This document shows, piece by piece, positions 1,349 through 18,078 of a DNA stretch of 37,125 nt. The notes under the pieces were generated by a model. That model saw only the letters and a program-made list of their open reading frames with translations. It was not told the origin of the DNA and did no database searches. This DNA comes from Streptomyces sp. 13-12-16 (GTDB lineage: Bacteria > Actinomycetota > Actinomycetes > Streptomycetales > Streptomycetaceae): positions 1 through 37,125 of the forward strand of contig NZ_NCTE01000200.1 of assembly GCF_002114215.1 (NCBI RefSeq). Reading direction: 5' to 3'. Positions within the stretch are counted from its first letter, which is position 1, and every line of letters starts with the position of its first letter. Position numbers and translations under genes: made by a program.

Positions 1349-1525
1349 TCACTTGCGCCGCTTGCGTGTCTTCGCCTTGCGTTCGGCTTCCTTGCGCTTC
1401 TTGATGGTGTACGACGACCACTCGCCACGGTGCAGGTTGCATCGCGACGCACCGACCATCGCCAGCCGCCGGCACCGAGTGCCCTTCTCCGTGAGCGCTC
1501 CACACCTGGACTGCGTACGAGCCAC
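1349..1525 (-). CDS. small Cys/His-rich basic protein, putative zinc binder
   Basis: The 58-residue product begins VARTQSRCGAL and has the spacing CGALTEKGTRC, then SRCNLHRGEW. Three cysteines and one histidine in a C-x7-C-x8-C-x2-H arrangement suggest a single zinc site. The C-terminal third is strongly basic (KKRKEAERKAKTRKRRK), suggesting nucleic-acid binding. I recall similar short proteins near actinobacterial phages and integrative elements, but their function is not known. The GTG at 1525 is preceded by a GGTGGGAG ribosome-binding-site-like run and starts right at the conserved part; a longer frame extends upstream without a recognizable pattern. It is the gene closest to att site A. 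Confidence 0.55.
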   Translation of the reverse strand: MARTQSRCGALTEKGTRCRRLAMVGASRCNLHRGEWSSYTIKKRKEAERKAKTRKRRK

Positions 1526-1841
1526 GTCTCCCACCCCCGGTCTCGGCCGTCGTGCGGACCAGTGCAGGATTGCCGGGCACATGTCCTCTGTGGAAGGCGC
1601 ACTGCTCCGCGCAGCGGTGCACGACGGCCCAAGGAGGTTGCTCTGGGGCGCACGCTTTCCAACTGTGTCGGTGGGGTGGTGGACGTCGTTCGGGGGCGTT
1701 CACCTGCGTTCATTCCCGTGCGGATGGTGAGACGACCCTTGCATCCGACTCTGCCTGAACGACGGTGGACGCCGGTGAACGAGACGGAAACTGAGACGGT
1801 GCCAGTGGGTCAGGTGCTCATGCTCCCGCCCCCGGGGCCGC

Positions 1842-2735
1842 TCAGCTTCCCTGCGCGCCGTCCGCGAGAGCGGTGGTGTCCTCGGGCAGCGGGGTCTCGA
1901 TGGACACGGGTTGATTGATGTCGAGGAAGGTGATGGTCAGGTCCAGTGGCCCGCCGCCGGTGCTGGCCTGCTTGTCGTTGGGCTCGGCTCGCATGCGGAA
2001 CTGCTTGGCATGGTCGTCACCGTCGATCCACAGGTCCATGGTGAGTGTGTCGGAGACGCCCAGCCCCATGAACTGATCGAGGCTCTCGATCAGGCGCTCC
2101 CGGGTCGCTTCGTCCACGGCGCCTTTACGGGCGGCAAGCAGACTGCCGCTGGTGACCGTTCCTTTGTAGTGCCTGGTCCTGGTGCCGTCGACCGTCTCAG
2201 TCCCGATCATCTGCAGGTCCTTGGACCCGGTCAGGAGTGTGGACTGCACGACGGGGCTTCCCTCGATCTGACGAGGGAGTACGCCATAGGACTTGTTGTC
2301 CACTGCGCCGTGACCCCATGCGGCAGGGTCAGCTCTGAACCAGCTCTTGCCGTCCAGCTTCTCGGAGTCGACCGCACTCCCGCCGACGTACATCACCTCG
2401 TTGACGAACCGGACCTCCAGATGGCTGTCCCCGTCCTGGTCGGCAACGGTCATCTTCATACTCATGGTCAGCGGTTCCGTGTTCATGGATGCCTCGGCCT
2501 CCAGACGGCCCTTCTCCGGCACGGTCCCGGTGATCCGATAGTGGAGCGACCTGATGTCCTCGGAGTTCGTCGCCGCCTTCGCCACGGCCGTCGCGGGTGT
2601 CACCTTGGGCGGGTCTTCATTCGCGGAATCACTCTCGGCGCCTCCGCAGGCAACCGTTCCCCCAGCGAGCAGCACGGCGGCGAACGCCACGCTCGTCACT
2701 CTGCGTGGTACGGAACCACGCGCTGAAACCCTCAC
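1842..2735 (-). CDS. secreted lipoprotein, LppX/LolA-like fold candidate
   Basis: The 297-residue protein starts at GTG 2735 behind GGGGGAATC. A basic N-terminus and hydrophobic stretch (about residues 12-29) end in TVAC at Cys30, a type II lipoprotein signal peptide. The mature part has the alternating strand pattern of actinobacterial LppX/LprG or LolA-like lipoproteins: VAKAATNSEDIRSLHYRITG, then TMDLWIDGDDHAKQFRM. Such proteins sit on the outer face of the membrane and bind hydrophobic ligands, but no specific ligand can be read here. It is transcribed leftward alone, inside the small att-flanked segment. A longer frame upstream to 2867 lacks a signal-peptide logic and was not used. Confidence 0.7.
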   Translation of the reverse strand: MRVSARGSVPRRVTSVAFAAVLLAGGTVACGGAESDSANEDPPKVTPATAVAKAATNSEDIRSLHYRITGTVPEKGRLEAEASMNTEPLTMSMKMTVADQDGDSHLEVRFVNEVMYVGGSAVDSEKLDGKSWFRADPAAWGHGAVDNKSYGVLPRQIEGSPVVQSTLLTGSKDLQMIGTETVDGTRTRHYKGTVTSGSLLAARKGAVDEATRERLIESLDQFMGLGVSDTLTMDLWIDGDDHAKQFRMRAEPNDKQASTGGGPLDLTITFLDINQPVSIETPLPEDTTALADGAQGS

Positions 2736-8690: not shown

Positions 8691-9293
8691 GTGATCCTGA
8701 TGCTCAAGGCGGTGAACCGGGTGCTGCTGGGGCTTCTCGGCCTTGGACTGTTCGCCCTGGGCGGCGGTGTGCTGCTGGGCGGGCTGGACCTGCCGCGCCG
8801 CTGGGACTTCGGCATGCCGGGCTGGTGGCCCTTCCGCGGGCCCGACGACGTGGTGCTGGGAACCGAGGGACGCACCCGGTGGCGGGAGGAAGGCTGGTGG
8901 TGGCCGACCGTCATCGCGGTGCTCGCCGTGCTGCTGGCCCTGCTGCTGTGGTGGCTCCTCGCCCAGCGCAGGCACCGCCTGGGCGGCGTCCTCGTCGAAA
9001 GCGGGGACAGCGCGGCGGCCCGGCTCGACGGCCGTGCACTGGAGGACGTGATCGAGGAAGAGGCACGGGACCTGGACGGAGTCGCACGGGCTCATGTACG
9101 ACTGACGGGCCGAAGCACCGCTCCGGCCGCGCGCGTACGGCTGGTGCTGGAGCCGCACGCCGATCCGGCGCGGACGCTGGGGCGACTGAGCCGGGAAACA
9201 CTCGCGCACGCGCGGGACTCGGCCGGCCTGGACAGCCTCCCCTCGAAGGTCCGGCTCAAAGAAGTCCGCCACCACGCACGACGCGTCGACTGA
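8691..9293 (+). CDS. alkaline shock membrane anchor protein (AmaP-like)
   Basis: The 200-residue protein has two transmembrane helices (about 10-32 and 70-91) joined by a Trp-rich loop, followed by a cytoplasmic domain from about residue 95 (LEDVIEEEARDLDGVARAHV). This topology is that of AmaP, which in Staphylococcus recruits Asp23 to the membrane. The GTG at 8691 comes two bases after the upstream stop, with GGGCTGAGG as ribosome binding site. It closes the coupled operon 6860-9293. The gene symbol is withheld because actinobacterial members are distant from the characterised protein. Confidence 0.75.
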   Translation: MILMLKAVNRVLLGLLGLGLFALGGGVLLGGLDLPRRWDFGMPGWWPFRGPDDVVLGTEGRTRWREEGWWWPTVIAVLAVLLALLLWWLLAQRRHRLGGVLVESGDSAAARLDGRALEDVIEEEARDLDGVARAHVRLTGRSTAPAARVRLVLEPHADPARTLGRLSRETLAHARDSAGLDSLPSKVRLKEVRHHARRVD

Positions 9294-9427
9294 TCCCCGG
9301 GGCCGGACTCCCGACGGGGGACCCGGTCAGCCCTTCCGAGGGAGAGAGACCTGGCCCGCAGCGCAGGTCTTCACGAGTGCCCCGGAGCCATCCACGCCGC
9401 GGTTTCCCTCAAGGGAGGCATCTCGCC

Positions 9428-9598
9428 ATGGCCCTCTTCCTGGCCCTGCTCGTCGCCGGAATTGCTCTGGTCGCCATCGGGGCGGGCGTCGACGGCATGC
9501 TCTATCTGTCCTCCGCCGGTGTACTGCTCCTCATCGCCGATCTGCTCTACCTGGCGGCCCGCTCCGTGTGGCGATCTCCTCGGCGCCCAGCCCGCTGA
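9428..9598 (+). CDS. small two-helix membrane protein
   Basis: The 56-residue protein starts at ATG 9428 with a good AAGGGAGG site. It is nearly all hydrophobic: helix 1 at about residues 2-20, helix 2 at about 24-44, then a short basic tail (WRSPRRPAR). Similar short proteins follow stress operons in Streptomyces, but I recognise no named family. Its last 52 bases overlap the 3' end of the convergent STAS gene. It may be the last gene of the Asp23 transcript, 134 bp downstream. Confidence 0.6.
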   Translation: MALFLALLVAGIALVAIGAGVDGMLYLSSAGVLLLIADLLYLAARSVWRSPRRPAR

Positions 9599-9933
9599 GG
9601 CCGCGCCCCTCCTGGCCTCGTCGTACGGAGCAGACGGTCGGAGCCCGTGTCCATGAACAGTCGTTCGGTCTGCGGGGAGGGGTGGTGCAGCCGCAGGGAC
9701 GCGTGGGTCTCGGCGGCGTGCCGTGACACGTCGAGGAAGACGCGCAGGCCGCTGTTGTCACAGCGGTCGACGGTGGTCAGATCGACGTCGATGAGGGTGA
9801 TGCCGTCCCGCAGGCACCGCTCCAGAACGGCGCGCACCTGGGGCGCGGTGGCGGGGTCGATCACGCCGGCCAGGGTGACCAGTGCCCGCCTGTCCCGGTC
9901 GTGCCGGTAGATGTTCAGCTGCGGAAGAGTCAT
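9547..9933 (-). CDS. STAS-domain anti-sigma factor antagonist
   Basis: The 128-residue protein has a full STAS domain (residues 5-105): ALVTLAGVIDPATAPQVRAV, then LIDVDLTTVDRCDNSGLRVF. Ser61 in DNSGL is the residue phosphorylated by anti-sigma kinases in SpoIIAA/RsbV-type antagonists. In the unphosphorylated state such proteins bind and sequester the anti-sigma factor. The ATG at 9933 is right before the conserved start. It is the last gene of a leftward series that includes a SpoIIE/PP2C phosphatase (11141-12349), a natural enzyme to dephosphorylate it. No kinase (RsbW type) is encoded nearby, so the partner must lie elsewhere. The Arg-rich C-terminal 20 residues are extra to the domain and overlap the convergent membrane-protein gene. 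Confidence 0.85.
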   Translation of the reverse strand: MTLPQLNIYRHDRDRRALVTLAGVIDPATAPQVRAVLERCLRDGITLIDVDLTTVDRCDNSGLRVFLDVSRHAAETHASLRLHHPSPQTERLFMDTGSDRLLRTTRPGGARPQRAGRRGDRHTERAAR

Positions 9934-9955
9934 GACGCCTCGGTTCAGATGTTGC

Positions 9956-10252
9956 TCAGATGCCCCGGTCCACGGGTCCCGGCCCCCCCGCCCGGTCCAG
10001 GGCCCGGGTGTACGCCCCGGCACGCGTCGCCGCGGTCTGAGCCGACGGTTCCGAGGCGCGGACGGGTGTCCGGATGATCACTCGTGGTGCGTAGTACGGC
10101 TGCGGCACGCAGCGGCCGCGGCGGCCGGGCCGGGGTGCGCCGTACCGGTACGCGGCGATTCTTTCGGCGTGCTGGAGGTTGAGCCGGTGGATCACGTACG
10201 CCGCCACTGCGACGAGGACCAGGAAGGCGGCGGCTGTCAGGAAGGCGTTCAT
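9956..10252 (-). CDS. small membrane protein with basic tail
   Basis: A 98-residue protein begins MNAFLTAAAFLVLVAVAAYV, one N-terminal transmembrane helix (about 4-22), followed by a basic, Tyr/Pro-rich cytoplasmic tail without recognised domain. The start at ATG 10252 has GAGGTGG seven bases upstream; an alternative ATG at 10261 lacks this spacing. It sits between a DUF5994 gene (11 bp upstream) and the STAS gene (22 bp downstream), so it is likely co-transcribed. The function is unknown. Confidence 0.6.
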   Translation of the reverse strand: MNAFLTAAAFLVLVAVAAYVIHRLNLQHAERIAAYRYGAPRPGRRGRCVPQPYYAPRVIIRTPVRASEPSAQTAATRAGAYTRALDRAGGPGPVDRGI

Positions 10253-10262
10253 GGCGGCCACC

Positions 10263-10859
10263 TCACATACCGATGATCAGCCGGCTGGCCCGGCCGGGCG
10301 GGCCGGTCTGTCGGGGAACGGCTGCGGCCACCGCGGAGGCGCCGCCCTCGTACTCCCATGCCTCGTCCGCGTCCAGTGGCTGGTCGGCCGCCAAGACGCC
10401 GTGCCGGGCCTCGTCCGCGGCGACGAGCGCGCTCGCGGTCAGGGGCGGGCCGTCGTGGTCGGACGCGGCAGCCATCAGCCGGGCCGCAGACTCCGCCCCG
10501 GTCTCGGGCGGGATGACCAGGAGATCCCAGCGGCCGGTGCCGTAGGAGAGCAGCAGCAGCTTGTGCGGGTCGATCTCCGGGGTGAACCAGCCGACCTTGA
10601 CGATGTGGCCGTCCACGGGAACCGTGCGGGGGATGACCGGCCAGTGTTCCGGGTTTACGGCGATGCGGGTGATGCGGCCCCACAGAGGATCCAACACATC
10701 CGTGAGTGCCGGCAGTTCGCTCAGCAGATCACGGGAACGGGGCCACCAGGCTCCGTCCAGGAGTCCGCGGGAGGGGCCGTCGGTCTTCAGTGCGAGACGC
10801 GCGGCCGGGGCTGCGACGGGCTCGGCGTGCGGCAGGGGCGGAAGCAAGGTCGCCGACAT
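10263..10859 (-). CDS. DUF5994 family protein (copy 1)
   Basis: The 198-residue protein contains the family hallmark LLDGAWWPRSRDLLSELPAL, then RITRIAVNPEHWPVIPRTV and WDLLVIPPETGAESAARLM. DUF5994 proteins are widespread in Streptomyces and often lie beside STAS and phosphatase genes, but their biochemical role is unknown. The ATG at 10859 begins MSATLLPPL. The C-terminal part beyond the domain (ADQPLDADEAWEYEGG and after) is less conserved. A second copy is at 12458-12970. Upstream sequence (10853-10975) is repeated at 14267-14388. Probably forms an operon with the small membrane protein and STAS gene that follow. Confidence 0.75.
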   Translation of the reverse strand: MSATLLPPLPHAEPVAAPAARLALKTDGPSRGLLDGAWWPRSRDLLSELPALTDVLDPLWGRITRIAVNPEHWPVIPRTVPVDGHIVKVGWFTPEIDPHKLLLLSYGTGRWDLLVIPPETGAESAARLMAAASDHDGPPLTASALVAADEARHGVLAADQPLDADEAWEYEGGASAVAAAVPRQTGPPGRASRLIIGM

Positions 10860-10975
10860 GATGCGGACCCGTCTCCGGGTCGCCTCTGCGGCGGCCCGGG
10901 TTTCATCTTTCGCCGGGGACGACCCGGCGTGGAAGCCGGTGTGCGAGATGCCCTCGGTACTGTCCACACTACTCC
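10853..10975 (-). repeat. upstream-region repeat R1
   Basis: About 115 bp covering the start codon and upstream region of DUF5994 copy 1 resemble 14267-14388 (roughly 75-80 percent by eye). Shared landmarks in the plus-strand reading are GACATGATGC, CCCGTCTCCG, GGACGACCCGGCG and CCCTCGGTACT. On the minus strand the last reads TACCGAG, which also precedes DUF5994 copy 2, so it may be a common promoter element. Confidence 0.65.
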
Positions 10976-11140
10976 GCGTTTCGTTGCGGCGCGGAGCAGC
11001 GGCCCCATGGAGTGGAGTACCGGCCGGATGATCTCCCGGCAGTGCCTCGGCGCGTGCCGGGAGTCCCCGTCCTTCGGGCTGAAGGGCCGTCGCCGCCGGG
11101 CGCGGCCGGCACAACGGTGTCGGATGGCGGGGGCGAGAGG

Positions 11141-12349
11141 TCAGCCGGGCCACTCGACCATGAGCAGCGTCGCGTCATCGCTGGTCCGTCCGCCCCTCGC
11201 CTGCTTGAGCGTGTGGGACAGGGATCGCGTCACCGCCCGGATGCCGCGCCCGGTCCTCTCCAGATGGTTCACACAGTCGATCAGCTGGTCCTCTCCGAAC
11301 TCCTCCCCACCGCTCCTGTGCTCCTCGACCAGTCCATCGGTGAAACAGAGGACGCGGTCCCCGCGCACCAGCCCCAGCTCACTGATCCGGGGCACCGGAC
11401 CGCCCAGGCCGACGGGAAGGGTCGTCGGGGCGACCAGACGCCGTGCGACGCGGTGGTCGCGGACGAGGATCGGTGACGGGTGCCCGGCGTTGACCCACTG
11501 CATCCGCCCCGTCGTCGTGTCCAGCTGCATCATCTGCGCGGTGACGAAGTGCTCGGGACCGAACTGCTCGGCCACGGCGCGGTCCATGAAGTCGTAGATC
11601 TCCGGCAGTCCGATGCCGGAGCGGCGGGCGTGGCGGTAGGCGCCGATGGCCACGGTGGCCATCGTGGCCGCGTCCAGTCCGTGGCCCATCGCGTCGATCA
11701 TGACCAGGTGGAGGACGTCGTCGTTGAGGGCGTAGTCGAAGCTGTCGCCGGCCACGTCGTAGGCGGGTTCCAGGATCCCGGCCACGGCCACCCGGGGCAT
11801 GATCATCGCCAGCGGTGGCAACAGGGACCACTGGATCTCCGCGGCGACGCTCATCGCCTCACCGCGCCGGACGCCGAAGAACAGGTCGGAGTAGCCGTGC
11901 TTGGTCACCAGCAGGTCGGCCACCAGGCCGGAGATCCTGTGCAGCAGGCGGCGGTCGTGGTCGTCGATGCCGTCCAGCGTCACCGCCATGACCCCCACCT
12001 GGTCACCGCCGTCCAGCAGCGGCAGATGAACCCGGACGCCGTCCTCCCGGGGCACCTCCACGGGGACCGCGTCGAGAAAGCAGCGGCCCGCCTCGGAATC
12101 GTCGATCACCTGCGGTTCCCCGCCCGTGAGGCCCTCACCGGGCAGCGGTACGAGCAGCTGCTGGCCGTAGTCCTGCAACAGCACCTGTGGTCGGCGGCCA
12201 CCGAGCCGTTCCACCACGTCGGCGACCAGGGGTCCGATGAGATGGGGCGGCAATTCGTGCGCGCTGTCGAGGATCTCTCCGAGGAGAGCTTCCCCGAAGC
12301 TCTCGGAGCGGTCCGCGCGCCGTCCTGCCGTCATCCCCTCACCCGCCAT
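11141..12349 (-). CDS. SpoIIE/PP2C family serine phosphatase
   Basis: The 402-residue protein has an N-terminal sensory region (about 1-150, GAF-like strand pattern with VMAVTLDGIDDHDRRLLHRI) and a C-terminal PP2C/SpoIIE domain (about 165-400). Metal-binding aspartates appear in YDVAGDSFDYAL, IDAMGHGLDAATMA, CFTDGLVEEH and TSDDATLLM. Such enzymes dephosphorylate STAS antagonists and so release a sigma factor. The two STAS genes in the same cluster are obvious candidate substrates. Start is uncertain: ATG 12349 (MAGEGM), a downstream ATG at 12334, or ATG 12391; I use 12349 because the helix pattern begins shortly after. No transmembrane segment is seen, so it should act in the cytoplasm. Confidence 0.85.
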   Translation of the reverse strand: MAGEGMTAGRRADRSESFGEALLGEILDSAHELPPHLIGPLVADVVERLGGRRPQVLLQDYGQQLLVPLPGEGLTGGEPQVIDDSEAGRCFLDAVPVEVPREDGVRVHLPLLDGGDQVGVMAVTLDGIDDHDRRLLHRISGLVADLLVTKHGYSDLFFGVRRGEAMSVAAEIQWSLLPPLAMIMPRVAVAGILEPAYDVAGDSFDYALNDDVLHLVMIDAMGHGLDAATMATVAIGAYRHARRSGIGLPEIYDFMDRAVAEQFGPEHFVTAQMMQLDTTTGRMQWVNAGHPSPILVRDHRVARRLVAPTTLPVGLGGPVPRISELGLVRGDRVLCFTDGLVEEHRSGGEEFGEDQLIDCVNHLERTGRGIRAVTRSLSHTLKQARGGRTSDDATLLMVEWPG

Positions 12350-12457
12350 GGTCAGGGCGGGCCGGTATGACAAAGGATCTGTCGGTGCCATGGCTCCATC
12401 AAGGGGTCGTGGACGCCCGGGTCCGCCGGGCACGCGTGGCAGGCCGGGGCGGGCTGC

Positions 12458-12970
12458 TTACCTGGGTCCGGCTCCTCCTTCCGACTCCCATGTGTCCTGT
12501 CCGTCGAGGCCGCTCTCGGCGAGTGCCAGCAGGCGCGGGGCGGACAAGGGGTTCTCGGGGTCGGAGGCGGCGGTCAGCAGCAGGGCTGCCGTTCCGGCCG
12601 GTTCGTCCGGTGGGACCACGAGCAGTTCCCAGCGCCCCACGGTGCCGCAGTCCACGGTGATGGCATGCATCTCGGCCGCCCCGTTGCTCAGGGCCACCTC
12701 GATCACATGCCCCGGTGCCATCACCTCCTGCGGGGCATCTGGCCAGGCGGCGGTACCCACGGTCACGCGCGTGACGGTGCCGATGCCCGGATCCAAGGAG
12801 CCGACCAGCGCGGGCAGCTCCAGTTCCAGTGCGTCGCAGCGCGGCCACCATGCGCCGTCCAGCGGGCCATGGCTGACATCCGGCGTGAGGCGCAGCCGGG
12901 GCAAGGGCATCCGGTAGGAGTGTCCGTCACCTGGGGCCGTACCTTTGGCGGACTTGGTGATGGCGTTCAT
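12458..12970 (-). CDS. DUF5994 family protein (copy 2)
   Basis: The 170-residue protein aligns by eye with the product of 10263-10859 over its whole length: PLDGAWWPRCDALELELPAL, GTVTRVTVGTAAWPDAPQEV, then GRWELLVVPPDEPAGTAALL. It lacks the C-terminal extension of copy 1. The start is ATG 12970 (MNAITKSAKG). It lies upstream of the phosphatase gene with a 108-bp gap and downstream of the STAS-GNAT gene. A TACCGAG box is 88 bases before its start, as in the repeat upstream of copy 1. The role is unknown; duplication within one cluster suggests two related partners or a regulatory pair. Confidence 0.75.
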   Translation of the reverse strand: MNAITKSAKGTAPGDGHSYRMPLPRLRLTPDVSHGPLDGAWWPRCDALELELPALVGSLDPGIGTVTRVTVGTAAWPDAPQEVMAPGHVIEVALSNGAAEMHAITVDCGTVGRWELLVVPPDEPAGTAALLLTAASDPENPLSAPRLLALAESGLDGQDTWESEGGAGPR

Positions 12971-13200
12971 CGTGCGATCCCGATCCGGGCGGTTTCCGGC
13001 TGCCCGTGTCTGTCACTCGCCGGGAACGGCGCCGCCGTGGTCGTGCGCCCGACAGTTCTCGGTACCTGTCAGGCTACTCCCGGCTGTGGCGGGCGGCGTG
13101 GCGCGCAGCCATCGCGTCGAGACACGTCCGTACGGCGGACGACGGGTGGCGTGGCGGCCCGGGCCGCGTACGACCGCCGGCTCATCGCTCCTCTGCCGAA

Positions 13201-14175
13201 TCATCGGCGTGCCGAGGGCTGCCCTTCGGAAGACAGGGTCAACACACAGGGGGCGACGGGGCCGGGCAGCCCGACCACCTCGCCCATGTTCTGCCAGCCC
13301 CAGGACGAGAAGGCGGCTTGTCCTGCCTGGTCGGCAGGATGCAGCAGGGTGACCCCGAGGGAGGACCGCAGGTCTGTGAGCAGACGCTGTTGCAGGCGGC
13401 GGGCGATATCACGGTGCTGAGCGTGCGGATGGGCCACGACCTGGGTGAGGACGACGAACCGTGCGCGGGAGGTGAGCCGCTGGATGATCTCCTGGAGCGT
13501 TCCGTCGAACCACCGGCGGTCGGAGCCGTCAGGGTCCACCGGATAACCGAAGGCGCAACCGATCAGCACCGTCGTTTCTGCGACCAGCAGGGCGAAGCGA
13601 GGGCGGTGGGCGGTGACCGCCAAGCGGTGCAGGAAGTCTCCACGGTCGTGGTACGCCTCGCCGGCGGTGCCCGCGACGGACTCCGCAGCCAGGTCCGCGA
13701 TGTCCTCGCGCATGTCTTCTGCCTGCCAGCGGGTCAGCCGTCGAAGGCGGATCCCGTCCCTGAGGACCGGCTGATCCGGCCGACGAGCGGGGTCCTCGGG
13801 CGCCCGCGTCGCGGTACTCATGAGGTCGCCGGATGCGGCGGGCGGCACGGGACTCACGGGGGCCGTAAGGAGCAGCGAAGTCGATCCGGTGGTATCGAGG
13901 AGCCGGGTGATCTGCGCGCACGGATGGTGCAGCCGCAGGCGAGCGTGGACCCGGCTGGCGCGCCGTGATGCCGACAGGAGGACGTCCAAGCCCCTGGCGT
14001 CGCAGGAGCCGACCGTGGTCATATCGATGTCGATCACGGTGACACCGTCCAGCAGACACTGCTCCACTGCGGCCCGCAGCAGCGGCGTCGTGGCCGGCCC
14101 GATGTCGCCGGCAAGCGTGACGAGCGTCCGCTCTCCTCGGTTCCGCCGATGGATGTCCAGCCGGGCAAAGGCCAT
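13201..14175 (-). CDS. STAS domain fused to a GNAT-like acetyltransferase domain
   Basis: The 324-residue protein starts at ATG 14175 behind GAGGGGAGG. Residues 1-110 are a STAS domain closely like that of the 9547-9933 protein (RTLVTLAGDIGPATTPLLRA), but the phosphorylatable serine is lost: CDARGLDVL has Arg61 where the sister protein has Ser61. Residues about 140-324 have a GNAT-like layout: IRLRRLTRWQAEDM, then VVLTQVVAHPHAQHRDIARR as the acetyl-CoA-binding strand-loop-helix, in which the usual glycine of the Q/R-x-x-G-x-G/A motif is Asp, and GWQNMGEVVGLPGP near the end. It is likely a non-switchable antagonist or a docking module that brings an acyltransferase, possibly weakened, to an anti-sigma factor. 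A 32-codon frame overlaps its start. Confidence 0.75.
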   Translation of the reverse strand: MAFARLDIHRRNRGERTLVTLAGDIGPATTPLLRAAVEQCLLDGVTVIDIDMTTVGSCDARGLDVLLSASRRASRVHARLRLHHPCAQITRLLDTTGSTSLLLTAPVSPVPPAASGDLMSTATRAPEDPARRPDQPVLRDGIRLRRLTRWQAEDMREDIADLAAESVAGTAGEAYHDRGDFLHRLAVTAHRPRFALLVAETTVLIGCAFGYPVDPDGSDRRWFDGTLQEIIQRLTSRARFVVLTQVVAHPHAQHRDIARRLQQRLLTDLRSSLGVTLLHPADQAGQAAFSSWGWQNMGEVVGLPGPVAPCVLTLSSEGQPSARR

Positions 14176-14273
14176 CACGCCTCCCCTCGGCGGGGTTGCG
14201 GACCTGCACGGGTGTTCAGCGCGGCCCCTGCCATGATGAGCTTGCGCGGAGTTGCTTCGACCGCGGCGGACAT
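14175..14273 (-). CDS. 32-codon upstream leader frame, DUF5994 start remnant
   Basis: ATG 14273 opens MSAAVEATPRKLIMAGAALN and ends with a TGA that overlaps the STAS-GNAT ATG (ATGA). Its start and upstream DNA match the start of DUF5994 copy 1 (MSATLLPPL). It may be a coupled leader peptide or simply the fossil of a duplicated DUF5994 gene whose body was deleted. Confidence 0.35.
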   Translation of the reverse strand: MSAAVEATPRKLIMAGAALNTRAGPQPRRGEA

Positions 14274-14388
14274 GATGCCGACCCGTCTCCGCGCCGACCA
14301 CTGGGGCGGCCCGGGGTTCGTCTCTCGCCGAGGACGACCCGGCGGGGCGGCCGGAGTGCGTGGTGCCCTCGGTACTTCAACCGTACGT
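14267..14388 (-). repeat. upstream-region repeat R2
   Basis: This is the second copy of the segment at 10853-10975, now in front of the STAS-GNAT gene. The TACCGAG box lies at 14374-14368 on the minus strand, 95 bases before the leader ATG. The repeat suggests that a promoter region was duplicated together with, or recombined onto, different cluster genes. Confidence 0.6.
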
Positions 14389-14619
14389 CGGCCGCAACCG
14401 GAAGCGGCTGCTTCGACGGGCGCGCGGCATGGTAGGGGCCGCATCACCTCACGGGCCGTCCCCACGGTCCGGGCTCTGCCGCGAGTACGAGCGCATGGGT
14501 TCGCGCCAGGCCCGGTTTGCCAAGGCCACCTCCAGCGTGTCCCCTCCCGTAGAGCAGCCTGCAGCGCGGGCGGACTTGCCCCGACGACACGGCGTCTGAA
14601 GATCAGGTTTTGAGACGGC
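14274..14619. other. 346-bp divergent intergenic region
   Basis: Besides repeat R2 this region holds no credible gene. It must contain the leftward promoter of the STAS-GNAT gene and the rightward promoter of the 14620-15362 pair, but I see no convincing -10/-35 pair in 14389-14619. Confidence 0.4.
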
Positions 14620-14811
14620 ATGACCTTCGGCAAGCTCGTCTTCCTCACGACCTGCGGCGCCCCGGCCAGCTACCAGCAGCAGCACGCCGCAGCCCAGGAC
14701 ATCCGCCGTCCCGACGTCCGCAACCTGGTCGCCGACATGGCCGCCCGCGACCGCCGTCGTACCCTGCCGGAACTGCACCACTTCAGCCGCCAACTGGGAG
14801 TCCCCGCGTGA
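14620..14811 (+). CDS. small hypothetical protein coupled to the flavoprotein gene
   Basis: The 63-residue frame from ATG 14620 has strong actinobacterial codon bias: MTFGKLVFLTTCGAPASYQQ, ending with TLPELHHFSRQLGVPA. A stop codon lies in frame only nine bases before the ATG. Its TGA overlaps the GTG of the flavoprotein gene (GTGA at 14808-14811). I recognise no family; the sequence looks helical and may be the C-terminal relic of a longer regulator that commonly precedes this type of flavoprotein gene in actinobacterial elements. There is no HTH. Confidence 0.5.
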   Translation: MTFGKLVFLTTCGAPASYQQQHAAAQDIRRPDVRNLVADMAARDRRRTLPELHHFSRQLGVPA

Positions 14812-15362
14812 CCGAGCCGACCGCTCCGGACAAGAAGCCCTTCCTGTACGTCGTCGTGTGCGCGGCAGGTGTTGCCCGTGACGTCGGCAAGCTCATCACC
14901 ACCGCCCAGGAGGCGCACTGGGACGTCGGCGCCATCGCCACACCGCAGGGACTCGGCTTCATCGACGCCAAGGCGATCGAGGCACAGACCGGCTACCCGA
15001 TCCGCTCCGCCTGGCGATCACCGGGAGACCCGCGCCCCCTGCCTCCGGCGGACGCGATCGCCGTCGCTCCCGCCACGTTCAACACGATCAACAAGTGGGC
15101 CGCCGGGATCTCAGACACCCTCGCCCTGGGCATCCTGTGCGAGGCGTACGGCATGGGCATCCCGACCGTGGCACTGCCCTACCTGAACTCAGCCCAGGCC
15201 GCCCACCCTGCCTATCAGCAGAGCCTGGACCGTCTGCAGGGGATGGGCGTCCTGATCGGCTCGTGCGAACCGCACCGGCCGAGGGCCGGTGGCGCGGCGG
15301 ATCGCTTCCGCTGGGAGGAAGCGCTGGAGTTGCTGGAGCCTCTGGTCAGCACGGTGCGGTGA
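14808..15362 (+). CDS. flavoprotein, EpiD/PPC-decarboxylase-like fold
   Basis: The 184-residue protein has features of the HFCD flavoprotein family (EpiD, Dfp, UbiX-like): FLYVVVCAAGVARDVGKLIT at the N-terminus in place of the classical G-S/T-IAA segment, ADAIAVAPATFNTINKWAAG with the PAxxNTxxKxxxG motif near residues 87-99, then LALGILCEAYGMGIPTVALP. Such enzymes bind FMN and decarboxylate or oxidise small acids or peptides. Stand-alone copies like this one are frequent in Streptomyces integrative elements, function unknown. The start GTG 14808 overlaps the previous stop. It reads rightward toward the convergent relaxase operon. Confidence 0.8.
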   Translation: MTEPTAPDKKPFLYVVVCAAGVARDVGKLITTAQEAHWDVGAIATPQGLGFIDAKAIEAQTGYPIRSAWRSPGDPRPLPPADAIAVAPATFNTINKWAAGISDTLALGILCEAYGMGIPTVALPYLNSAQAAHPAYQQSLDRLQGMGVLIGSCEPHRPRAGGAADRFRWEEALELLEPLVSTVR

Positions 15363-15534
15363 CGCGGTTCCTTCACCGGGGACGGACCGCAGTGATCATC
15401 GTCGACGCCCGTTCGCCAGGCTGCCGACGAGGTCACCGGGGAGCGAGGCAATCACTCCTCCTCGTGCGGACGTGCTGGGCTGCTGCCGAGGCGAGCTGAT
15501 CCGGAAGTAGGAGGGGGTCCCCCGGGCAAAGACC

Positions 15535-15595
15535 GTTCACTCAGGAAACACCAGAGCGTTCACTCAGGAAACGCGCGAATGTTCACTCAGGAAAC
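15535..15595. repeat. three exact 15-bp direct repeats at 23-bp spacing
   Basis: GTTCACTCAGGAAAC occurs at 15535-15549, 15558-15572 and 15581-15595. The 8-bp spacers differ, while starts are exactly 23 bp apart, about two helical turns, so all copies face the same side of the DNA. This is the layout of iterons bound cooperatively by a replication initiator or partition protein. A transcriptional operator is less likely because both flanking genes converge on the region. Confidence 0.85.
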
Positions 15596-15685
15596 CCGCG
15601 CCCGTCGTGGACCGGCCAAGCGCCCGTTGTGTGGTGTCAGCGGTGTGGGAGCCTGGGGGTGAACGGGACAGGTGCCTTCCTCCTG

Positions 15686-15713
15686 CTGACGGCCTCGCGC
15701 GCGAGGCCGTCAG
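15686..15713 (-). terminator. perfect 28-bp palindrome ending the relaxase operon
   Basis: CTGACGGCCTCGCG is followed directly by its reverse complement, with no loop. It lies nine bases beyond the relaxase stop and is a likely terminator of the leftward mob operon; it may also block the convergent flavoprotein transcript. Confidence 0.6.
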
Positions 15714-15721
15714 TGCCGGAA

Positions 15722-17431
15722 TTACCGGTGTCGAGAAGGTGCCGCAGGCCCAGGCTGCGAAGGGCTCGGTGGGGTCTGGCCACGCTGTGCCGTTCGTGCT
15801 GCAACGCTCGTGCGGGCTTGGGCGGCTCGTGCTCGGGCGCTGGGGGCCTGCCGGGCGGCGAGGCGTTGGATGCGCCAGGTGAGGGTCCTGGCGGTGGAGC
15901 GGGCGTCGTCCAGGGTGCGCCGGCGGGCGGCATGCTGGAGGAGCAGCTCGGGATCGTGGCCGGCGGTCTCGGCTTCGGTCAGGGCGGCGGCGAGTGCCGG
16001 CCAGGCGGGGTCGTCGAGGATCTGCTGAGCGTGTTCGGGCACGATCACGAGGATCCGCTGGGCGTGCCGTTCCATGGTGCGGGCCGGTGGTTGGCGCTGG
16101 GCCAGGGCGGCCAGTGGCTCGGCAGCAGCCTGTTGGGAGACGGCCTGCAGGTGGACCAGGGCCTGGTGGGCGGCGGCGACCTGCTGGTCGTGCTGGCGAG
16201 CCTGGTGCCAGCGGGCTGTGGCGAAGATGACGAGCACTGCGATGTCGAGGAACATCGCCAGCCCGGACCCGTCACCGGTGACCGGCACGGTGCGCAGCGC
16301 GCGGACGGCGCCCCGGAGGGCGCGTGCCTGGTCCTGCTGGGCGCGGATGCGGGAGCGGGTGGCGCGTTCGAACGCTGTGGCGGCCTGTTGCAGCTGTGGC
16401 CGCAGGTGGCTGGGGGCGAGCAGCGGCAGGACATCGATGGCTTCGCCAAAGGCTGCGATGTGGGCCTGGGCTGCCGCGTCGTCACCGTGGTCGAGGTGGT
16501 GGGGGATGCGCTCGGCCGCGGCGGTGGCCTGGTACCAGGGGTTGGGCCTGCGCCGGCTGCCCGGCTCCGCTGCGGGCGGAGCCTCGATGGCGGTGAGGCG
16601 TTCGCGGATCTTGGGGAAGGACAGGTCGGGGGCGAGTTTGGCGCCGGAGAACCAGATCGGCTCGCCGGCGGCGTTGGTGTCGCCTGCCACGGCGACCTTG
16701 TACCCGCGTACGTCGCCGGAGGGAAAGTGCTGAACATCGACGAGGACGCCTTCGACGCCGTCGAGCAGGTGGAGGAATTCCTCCGGGCTGGTGGCGATGG
16801 ACACCAGCTGGCGGACGGTGGTGCGCAGGCGCTCGCGGGAGGTCCGAGTCGTGCCGGCGCGGCGGGCTTTCTCCATCTCGGCGCGGGTGGGGCGCTTGGT
16901 GGCGGTGCGGTCGCCGCGCACGACCTGCAGGAGTCCGTATTCCTTCTCGATGGCGGCGAGTTCCTTGTCGGCCTTCAGGTAGTCGTTCCAGTGGCGGGCG
17001 GTGCTCAGGTCTCCTCGGACCTTGGTGGCGGCGATGTGGATGTGGTCGTCGGCGTGGCGTACGGCGACCCAACGGCACCCGTCGGGGTCGCCTTGTGGCG
17101 CGATGCCGGTGGCCGCCACAATGCGGCGCGCGATGTCCGCCCACTCGGCGTCGGTGAGGTGCCGGTCGCCGGGGGCGGCACGTACCGAGCAGTGCCACAC
17201 GTGCCGCTCGGGTACCCGGCCCAGTCGGCGGGCTTGCTTGACCCGCAGGTCGAGGTCGGCCACGAGGCGCTTCTTTGTGGCGTCGAAGTCGTCGGCGCGG
17301 CCTGGGTCGGGTGCGAAGCCGTCCCAGGAGGCGATCAGGTGCGGGTCGGTGTGGTCCTTGGCCTTCTTCGTGTCGAACAGGTACCGGATCAGGCCGGCGG
17401 TGTCCTTGCCGCTGCCGATCTTGGCGATCAC
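15722..17431 (-). CDS. MOBP-type relaxase/mobilization nuclease
   Basis: The 569-residue protein is a HUH relaxase that would nick oriT and stay attached to the transferred strand. Motif I has Tyr17 in TAGLIRYLFD, and the metal-binding histidine motif is HADDHIH (His126, His130, His132). The N-terminal domain (1-250) carries these, and the long helical C-terminus (300-569) contains one hydrophobic segment at about 389-407 (GLAMFLDIAVLVIFATA), which may tether it to the membrane. The tail is Ala/Arg/Pro rich. GTG 17431 overlaps the mobC stop by four bases (GTGA), so the two are coupled. No helicase domain is visible. The class (MOBP, as in MobA/Rlx with MobC) is judged by motif spacing. Confidence 0.88.
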   Translation of the reverse strand: MIAKIGSGKDTAGLIRYLFDTKKAKDHTDPHLIASWDGFAPDPGRADDFDATKKRLVADLDLRVKQARRLGRVPERHVWHCSVRAAPGDRHLTDAEWADIARRIVAATGIAPQGDPDGCRWVAVRHADDHIHIAATKVRGDLSTARHWNDYLKADKELAAIEKEYGLLQVVRGDRTATKRPTRAEMEKARRAGTTRTSRERLRTTVRQLVSIATSPEEFLHLLDGVEGVLVDVQHFPSGDVRGYKVAVAGDTNAAGEPIWFSGAKLAPDLSFPKIRERLTAIEAPPAAEPGSRRRPNPWYQATAAAERIPHHLDHGDDAAAQAHIAAFGEAIDVLPLLAPSHLRPQLQQAATAFERATRSRIRAQQDQARALRGAVRALRTVPVTGDGSGLAMFLDIAVLVIFATARWHQARQHDQQVAAAHQALVHLQAVSQQAAAEPLAALAQRQPPARTMERHAQRILVIVPEHAQQILDDPAWPALAAALTEAETAGHDPELLLQHAARRRTLDDARSTARTLTWRIQRLAARQAPSARARAAQARTSVAARTAQRGQTPPSPSQPGPAAPSRHR

Positions 17432-18078
17432 TGGGCCGCCTTCGCGGAGACAGCGTGGTTCATGGTCTGCGCGATGTCGCCGATCGCGGCGCGGACTGCG
17501 TCCAGGGTGCGCTCGGTCTGCGCGAGGACGGCGGTGTCCACAGGGTGTGGATCCCCTCCGGCGTTGAGGCGGTGGGCGATCTGGTTGACGTTGTTGCCGA
17601 TGCGGGCGACCTCGGCCCGCAGGGCGTCGAGCTTGTCGAGGCAATCATCGAGCTGGGTGCGCTGCCCGGCCAGGCCCACGGTGAGATCGCCATCGAGGTA
17701 GGCCATGATCACGGCGCCGACGAGGTGGGCGCCGGCGATGCCCATCTCACGGGCCCGGGTGAGGATCCGGGTCTTCTCGTCGACGCTGTAGCGGACGTCG
17801 ACACGCTTTTTGCGCTGGACGTCCTCGCGGGAACGGCGGCGGGCGAGACGACGCAAGGTGACTTCGTCGGCGCTGGCGGCGGGCGACTGCTCGGCTGCGT
17901 CGGCGGGTGCCTCCTCCTCGGGCACCCCCTGGTGCCCGAAGCCCTCCGCCACCCCCGGGGCAGAGGTGTCCGCGTTGGACCGGCCCTTGGACGGTCCAAC
18001 GTCATACCTTGCTGGCTGGGTGACGGCGGTGGTCACCTCCTGCTGGCTGGTGGGGAGTTCATTGTGGAGGTCGGGCAT
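17428..18078 (-). CDS. MobC-type relaxosome accessory protein
   Basis: The 216-residue protein has a disordered acidic N-terminus (1-70) and a C-terminal MobC domain: KRVDVRYSVDEKTRILTRA resembles a ribbon-helix-helix start, and VARIGNNVNQIAHRLNAGGD is the characteristic G-N-N-x-N-Q-I-A motif of MobC proteins. These proteins bind oriT, open the nick site and help the relaxase. ATG 18078 has GGAG at a spacing of nine; ATG 18093 is an alternative. It is coupled to the relaxase gene. An inverted repeat 55 bp upstream (18133-18166) may be its target. Confidence 0.85.
   Translation of the reverse strand: MPDLHNELPTSQQEVTTAVTQPARYDVGPSKGRSNADTSAPGVAEGFGHQGVPEEEAPADAAEQSPAASADEVTLRRLARRRSREDVQRKKRVDVRYSVDEKTRILTRAREMGIAGAHLVGAVIMAYLDGDLTVGLAGQRTQLDDCLDKLDALRAEVARIGNNVNQIAHRLNAGGDPHPVDTAVLAQTERTLDAVRAAIGDIAQTMNHAVSAKAAQ

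Follow-up and report, generated by a model that had tools for sequence, protein, structure and literature searches.

Partner switching operates through the reversible phosphorylation of a serine in a STAS protein, while the usual acetyl-CoA loop of GNAT acetyltransferases follows the motif Q/RxxGxG/A. The serines phosphorylated in the two antagonists considered here are S56 in RsbV and S58 in SpoIIAA, according to the available part of PMC11418112. The gene described below, from Streptomyces sp. 13-12-16, resembles RsbV and SpoIIAA in its STAS_2 domain, in its predicted fold (1til, 1th8 and 6m36) and in the Asp and Gly-Leu of the DSxGL loop, but it has Ala-Arg at the positions of the phosphoserine and its neighbour, carries a second domain, and lies on a contig on which no kinase gene was found. 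That second domain resembles the GNAT acetyltransferases (Acetyltransf_1) in predicted topology and fold matches, but falls below the cut-off of PF00583 and has Asp for the loop Gly. Among STAS proteins, the pairing of these two domains is authentic and conserved, and no description of a STAS-GNAT protein, or of DUF5994, was found in the literature searched, which was judged by titles and the opening parts of abstracts and lacks most subscription journals.

Architecture of the fusion gene

The window, i.e. the whole stretch of DNA analysed, comprises 37,125 nucleotides. The fusion gene, its parts and a second STAS gene (the 'sister') are located as follows:

13201..14175, minus strand: STAS-GNAT fusion gene, a single ORF of 324 aa plus stop, without an internal stop
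13864..14175, minus strand: STAS domain, residues 1-104, assigned from its PF13466 match (1.3e-11) and predicted fold
13987..14004, minus strand: switch loop C58-D-A60-R61-G-L63, with A60 at the phosphoserine position and R61 adjoining it
13765..13863, minus strand: variable linker, residues 105-137 (omega 0.86)
13819..13821, minus strand: codon of Met119 within ATGA, a possible relic of an ancestral stop/start overlap
13228..13764, minus strand: predicted divergent GNAT-fold domain, residues 138-316, from a weak PF00583 match, the profile of its relatives and a predicted model
13402..13419, minus strand: acetyl-CoA loop Q253-H-R-D256-I-A258, with Asp in place of the usual Gly
9547..9933, minus strand: sister STAS gene (CDNSGL), PF13466 match 3e-15

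The fusion is real and inherited, its architecture and descent being near certain, and the gene product is probably one stable two-domain protein. A profile search places STAS_2 (PF13466) at residues 19-97 with 44.9 bits, against a curated cut-off of 29.2; the cut-off of TIGR00377 (53.45) is missed both by the fusion protein (38.6 bits) and by the sister (45.1 bits). In the AF2 model of the full protein, residues 1-80 form a block with pLDDT of 70-89. The best Foldseek match of the STAS model is 1til_B (E 3.9e-7, rmsd 1.6 over 98 columns), and the structures closest to it are antagonists from kinase complexes (1til, 1th8 and 6m36). The STAS half is predicted to take the RsbV/SpoIIAA fold, and the STAS assignment made in a preliminary description of this DNA is upheld by both the profile score and the match of the model to 1til_B.

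The C-terminal half is more divergent. PF00583 matches residues 174-276 with 16.7 bits when the full protein is searched and with 18.5 bits when the GNAT domain is searched alone, both below the cut-off of 20.7. E values of 0.01 or better against this profile are reached by 13 of the 28 family members, including the window's protein, the best being 1.6e-9. A profile built from the 28 members, run against the PDB with a limit of E 1, finds 12 sequences, each weakly (E 0.15-0.82), and all 12 are either named acetyltransferases or enzymes that we take to be GNATs. This half is poorly modelled within the full protein (pLDDT below 50 for residues 104-255); modelled alone, the best of five models reaches pLDDT 59.9 and pTM 0.55, and the other four pLDDT 38.8-44.0. 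The model of the isolated domain has GNAT topology; Foldseek matches it to GNAT-fold enzymes at E values starting from 1.3e-6, and VIA Z reaches 10.6. With modest confidence, the C-terminal half is predicted to be a divergent GNAT fold, and the structure prediction that the preliminary description had proposed as a check on its GNAT-like domain has come out in that domain's favour.

Distribution and conservation

Matches to nearly the whole query were found in at least 15 of 199 genomes of the genus, the window's own included, with one genome (G049) matched twice. All 48 public loci that matched are labelled Streptomyces, some encoding proteins 97-100% identical to the window's fusion. Both halves are carried in one frame by 43 of them (L031-L073), a count that includes L057, in which the frame shifts towards the end of the GNAT half; the other five (L074-L078) retain parts of the GNAT half only. 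An order-wide sample of 147 genomes, searched at E up to 1e-12, yielded near full-length matches in five genomes, of which G260 and the 43%-identical G231 were new. Plasmid records gave no match.

The relics without a STAS half, L074-L077, are from S. canus, S. scabiei, S. malachitofuscus and S. mexicanus, and the small relic L078 is from Streptomyces sp. Ag109_O5-1. S. cyaneochromogenes has two fused copies, L032 and L069, which are 100% and 64% identical to that of the window.

Together with L001-L015, the 43 fused public loci give 58 fused ORFs, some of which are the same gene from two collections; these reduce to 49 distinct rows, the window's protein being entered twice, as WIN and L001. 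Many residues are invariant in both the STAS and the GNAT half. The linker is variable, yet the frame is maintained across the fused ORFs. Median pairwise omega across 40 aligned genes is 0.33 for the STAS half, 0.38 for the GNAT half and 0.86 for the linker, values that are possibly biased by saturation at high GC. Both halves are under purifying selection.

The switch position and the acetyl-CoA loop

In the HMMER alignments, D59-A60-R61-G62-L63 of the fusion pairs with D-S-T-G-L of RsbV (6m36), and D-N-S-G-L of the sister pairs both with this sequence and with D-S-S-G-L of SpoIIAA (1auz). As RsbV has Thr in second place in this pair, the phosphoserine must be the first residue after the Asp. 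Furthermore, the SpoIIAA chain common to the kinase complexes 1tid and 1til reads MDASGL, with Ala at the phosphosite, presumably representing the engineered S58A. This chain is like the fusion in having Ala at the phosphosite; however, the Ala of the fusion is natural and conserved, and the following residue is Ser in SpoIIAA but Arg in the fusion. Judged by these alignments, the switch position is residue 60, which is Ala in the fusion and Asn in the window's sister, and R61 replaces the Ser or Thr that neighbours the phosphoserine position.

The preliminary description had read the letters correctly (CDARGL in the fusion, CDNSGL in the sister and AQHRDIA towards the C-terminus), but took position 61 for the switch serine. 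This candidate is ruled out by the RsbV and SpoIIAA alignments and by the MDASGL chain of 1tid and 1til, which place the phosphoserine at residue 60, so that the register was off by one. Nor can the sister serve as the phosphorylatable comparison for which it was used, since in the window's strain it has Asn at the phosphoserine position. What stands is that a STAS domain lacking a phosphorylatable serine, fused to a predicted acetyltransferase fold, is present and conserved; the reasoning about which residue was lost does not.

A phosphorylatable Ser is absent from the switch position of the fusion, which has Ala60, and is found in only four of the 49 rows. C58, D59 and G62 do not vary; position 60 has A in 43 rows, S in 4, D in 1 and P in 1, and position 61 has R in 34, K in 9, G in 4, I in 1 and Q in 1. 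The conservation of Ala60 and Arg/Lys61 implies that they are a trait of the lineage and not a lesion. The sister is present in 11 of the 43 fused loci (14 raw matches minus self-matches in L047, L058 and L072). In 11 related loci its phosphosite is Ser in six and Asp, which could mimic phosphorylation, in five. Ser or Thr is missing from the phosphosite in 8 of the 23 STAS_2 matches in the genome (or in 6 when only the 19 that exceed the Pfam cut-off are counted), while Arg next to the phosphosite is found only in the fusion among these matches. Hence, with a missing serine being common in this genome, it is the Ala-Arg pair that is unusual.

The loop QHRDIA of the fusion keeps the Q and A of the canonical motif, from which it departs by the replacement of Gly by Asp. 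This substitution had been noted in the preliminary description, and is confirmed; position 256 is D in 44 rows, E in 2, A in 2 and H in 1. The loop Gly is present in none of 22 fused rows, 3 of 12 tandem rows, 7 of 9 near-solo rows and 6 of 12 far-solo rows. Its absence from other lineages of this GNAT subfamily means that the loss is not special to the fusion; its absence from all 22 fused genes sampled means that the GNAT half may not bind CoA.

Origin from tandem genes

Separate, neighbouring STAS and GNAT genes occur in other genomes of the genus. These tandem genes (L020, L024, L029, L030, L102-L104 and L106-L108) encode the same halves in the same order, and in some loci have DUF5994, PP2C or Asp23 genes nearby; they differ from the fusion in giving two proteins from overlapping genes, and in having Ser or Thr at the second loop position in ten cases out of ten. 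The TGA stop of the STAS gene overlaps an RTG start of the GNAT gene in 11 of the 12 tandem loci examined. One of the 11, L027, has a broken STAS half, and the sole miss is L028, in which the STAS gene is frameshifted. Such an overlap would be expected to couple the translation of the two genes. In the ancestral arrangement, STAS and GNAT are two genes, the stop codon of the first overlapping the start codon of the second.

All 22 fused rows of the GNAT tree fall into a single clade (100/100), nested in a group of tandem and near-solo genes, with the tandem L102 as the nearest row (100/99). The fused rows are likewise one clade (100/100) in the STAS tree, where long branches are flagged among the outgroup rows; L102 is again nearest, but weakly (92/63), followed by the sister genes. 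The trees and the overlaps show that the halves were joined once, in the ancestor of part of the genus.

A trace of the junction may persist in the linker, where RTGA stands in frame at codon 119 in 17 of 36 aligned fused genes, against a background of 70 in 12700 codons; the 17 genes, those closest to the window, are related and hence not independent. This RTGA may be a relic of the stop/start overlap. The retention of an internal start in all fused genes was also considered, and is rejected because Met119 is not conserved among the deeper rows. A second fusion, L123 (in G231, 1501-2427, minus strand), is of the CDASGL type and has one extra base relative to the tandem loci L024 and L020, just before the stop/start overlap. 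It is the only example, and an error in the sequence may account for it. The overlaps in 11 of 12 loci, along with a separate fusion one base removed from tandem genes, suggest that the two products act together.

A single loss of the phosphoserine preceding the fusion was considered but set aside, given the distribution of Ser60, which is found in 4 of 49 fused, 6 of 11 sister and none of 10 tandem genes; several losses or regains are possible.

Genomic context

The flanking features to which the following counts refer are:

12458..12970, minus strand: DUF5994 gene directly downstream, PF19457 match 6.4e-32
11141..12349, minus strand: SpoIIE-type PP2C phosphatase gene, PF07228 match 1.2e-41, with a weak GAF match
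10263..10859, minus strand: second DUF5994 gene, PF19457 match 1.6e-40
14175..14273, minus strand: 32-codon leader ORF, the TGA of which overlaps the ATG of the fusion (TGATG)
14364..14375, minus strand: upstream box GTACCGAGGGCA, at about -200 from the fusion, found in 32 of 41 upstream regions

The order downstream on the same strand is DUF5994, PP2C, second DUF5994, a small ORF without a Pfam match, and the sister STAS gene. Among the 43 fused loci, some of which are cut by contig ends, the PP2C gene lies downstream on the same strand in 36, as does a DUF5994 gene of type b, the counterpart of the gene at 12458..12970 (39 raw matches minus weak cross-matches in L035, L037 and L058, two of the three being on the other strand), and DUF5994 and PP2C genes are both downstream in 34. 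Within the short flanks of the 12 tandem loci, PP2C is found in three, DUF5994 in four and the Asp23-side neighbour in two. A kinase or anti-sigma gene usually, though not necessarily, adjoins the gene of an antagonist of the RsbV/SpoIIAA type. No match to HATPase_c_2 was found on the window's 37-kb contig; there are 82 such places elsewhere in the genome, not all of them RsbW-like.

Upstream of the fusion, an ATG leader with the same end point is found in 30 of 41 upstream regions, and in 5 of the 11 misses the match started past the start codon. A related box, GTACCGAG, is located approximately 100 bases upstream of both DUF5994 genes, at 13065 and 10960 on the minus strand, and the GTACCGAGGGCA and GTACCGAG boxes are possibly a shared promoter or operator. 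No sigma-B-like pattern was found upstream of the fusion gene, Rfam gave no matches in 9000-16000, and PADLOC gave no families for the four proteins submitted to it.

At 14808-17644, the cluster is adjoined by a flavoprotein-domain gene on the plus strand and a long minus-strand ORF that appears relaxase-like by eye; this is perhaps the edge of an integrative element. The relaxase-like ORF is near the fusion in 5 of the 43 loci and the flavoprotein-domain gene in 4.

Possible functions of the fusion protein

The function tentatively favoured, which is judged to have a little less than an even chance of being correct, is that a phosphorylation-blind STAS module docks on a partner-switching complex and so delivers the GNAT domain to it. 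By analogy with Ser-to-Ala mutants elsewhere, Ala at the phosphosite would leave the partner kinase unable to switch the STAS half off in the usual way. The STAS half would then be a permanently available docking module that tethers the GNAT half to a partner-switching protein. The most plausible partner is an RsbW-like kinase encoded in this genome, or else a complex involving the co-encoded phosphatase system, and the GNAT half might acylate this partner or report acyl-CoA occupancy to it. Consistent with docking are the 58 fused ORFs maintained in frame, the single fused clade in both trees, the constraint on both halves, the conservation of A60 and R/K61, the likeness of the STAS model to antagonists from kinase complexes and the 82 HATPase_c_2 places in the genome. 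The available text of PMC11619594 reports that Ser-to-Ala antagonists bind RsbW more stably, and that of PMC4517449 that unphosphorylatable SypA S56A is active. Against this, RsbV1 S56A, though a better binder of RsbW, was without a phenotype in wild-type Chlamydia, as far as the available text of PMC11619594 goes, and Arg61 might block docking of the kinase. Also weighing against docking are the Ser60 of four rows, the broken copies (L057 and L074-L078), the missed cut-offs of PF00583 and TIGR00377, the modest confidence of the GNAT model, the absence of the loop Gly from all 22 fused genes sampled, and the lack of a HATPase_c_2 match on the contig, because of which no cognate kinase can be named.

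This same lack of a kinase gene on the window's contig favours a different partner, the SpoIIE-type PP2C encoded downstream, on which the unphosphorylatable STAS half would dock as a pseudosubstrate, holding or regulating it, with the GNAT half acting as sensor or modifier. In 36 of 43 loci the phosphatase gene lies downstream of the fusion and on its strand, in 34 of them separated from it by a DUF5994 gene, and a modelled SpoIIE-SpoIIAA interface covers the phosphosite in the part of PMC11418112 available. Nevertheless, no PP2C gene was found near the fusion in seven loci, at least one of which is cut by a contig end, and in two of the three tandem loci with a PP2C gene in their short flanks it is on the strand opposite to the pair. 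This explanation is regarded as unlikely, though credible. If the STAS half alone instead acted as a constitutive anti-sigma sink, it would trap an RsbW-like kinase and free a sigma factor upon expression, the GNAT half being passive or stabilising. The Ala that 43 of 49 rows have at residue 60 fits such a role, as do the more stable kinase complexes described for Ser-to-Ala antagonists in the accessible portion of PMC11619594. It is nonetheless distinctly unlikely, as conservation of the GNAT half is similar to that of the STAS half, Arg61 is unlike the aligned RsbV and SpoIIAA chains, and the Asn, Asp, Cys, Gly and Arg found at the phosphosite in relatives suggest relaxed selection, not selection for Ala.

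Both halves could be scaffold domains that have degenerated, in a gene undergoing slow decay, given the relics without a STAS half (L074-L077), the small relic L078, the late frameshift in L057, the lost loop Gly and the restriction of the fusion to few genomes of the genus, but the purifying selection on both halves, the 58 fused ORFs and the many residues invariant in each make this very unlikely. An artefact of sequencing or annotation, joining two genes, is refuted for the window's gene and has virtually no probability, although it is possible for the lone fusion L123. Separate STAS and GNAT genes, which the preliminary description had named as a sign of such an artefact, do occur in other genomes of the genus, but they represent the ancestral state; the fusion itself recurs in at least 15 of 199 genomes and 43 public loci, and the fused genes form one clade (100/100).

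Implications

A bolder extension of the docking model, rather unlikely as a complete account, is that the STAS loop now serves permanently for docking, control having passed to the attached GNAT domain, which would respond to acyl-CoA. If true, the activity of a sigma factor or phosphatase would be tuned by acetyl-CoA or acylation, not by serine phosphorylation. The series from tandem to fused genes in living genomes, with the same halves both overlapping and fused, makes this idea testable. A conserved lineage without the switch serine, with Arg or Lys adjoining its position and joined to a predicted acetyltransferase fold, points to another kind of input into the partner-switching hub, and the fusion may tie the control of stress genes to metabolism.
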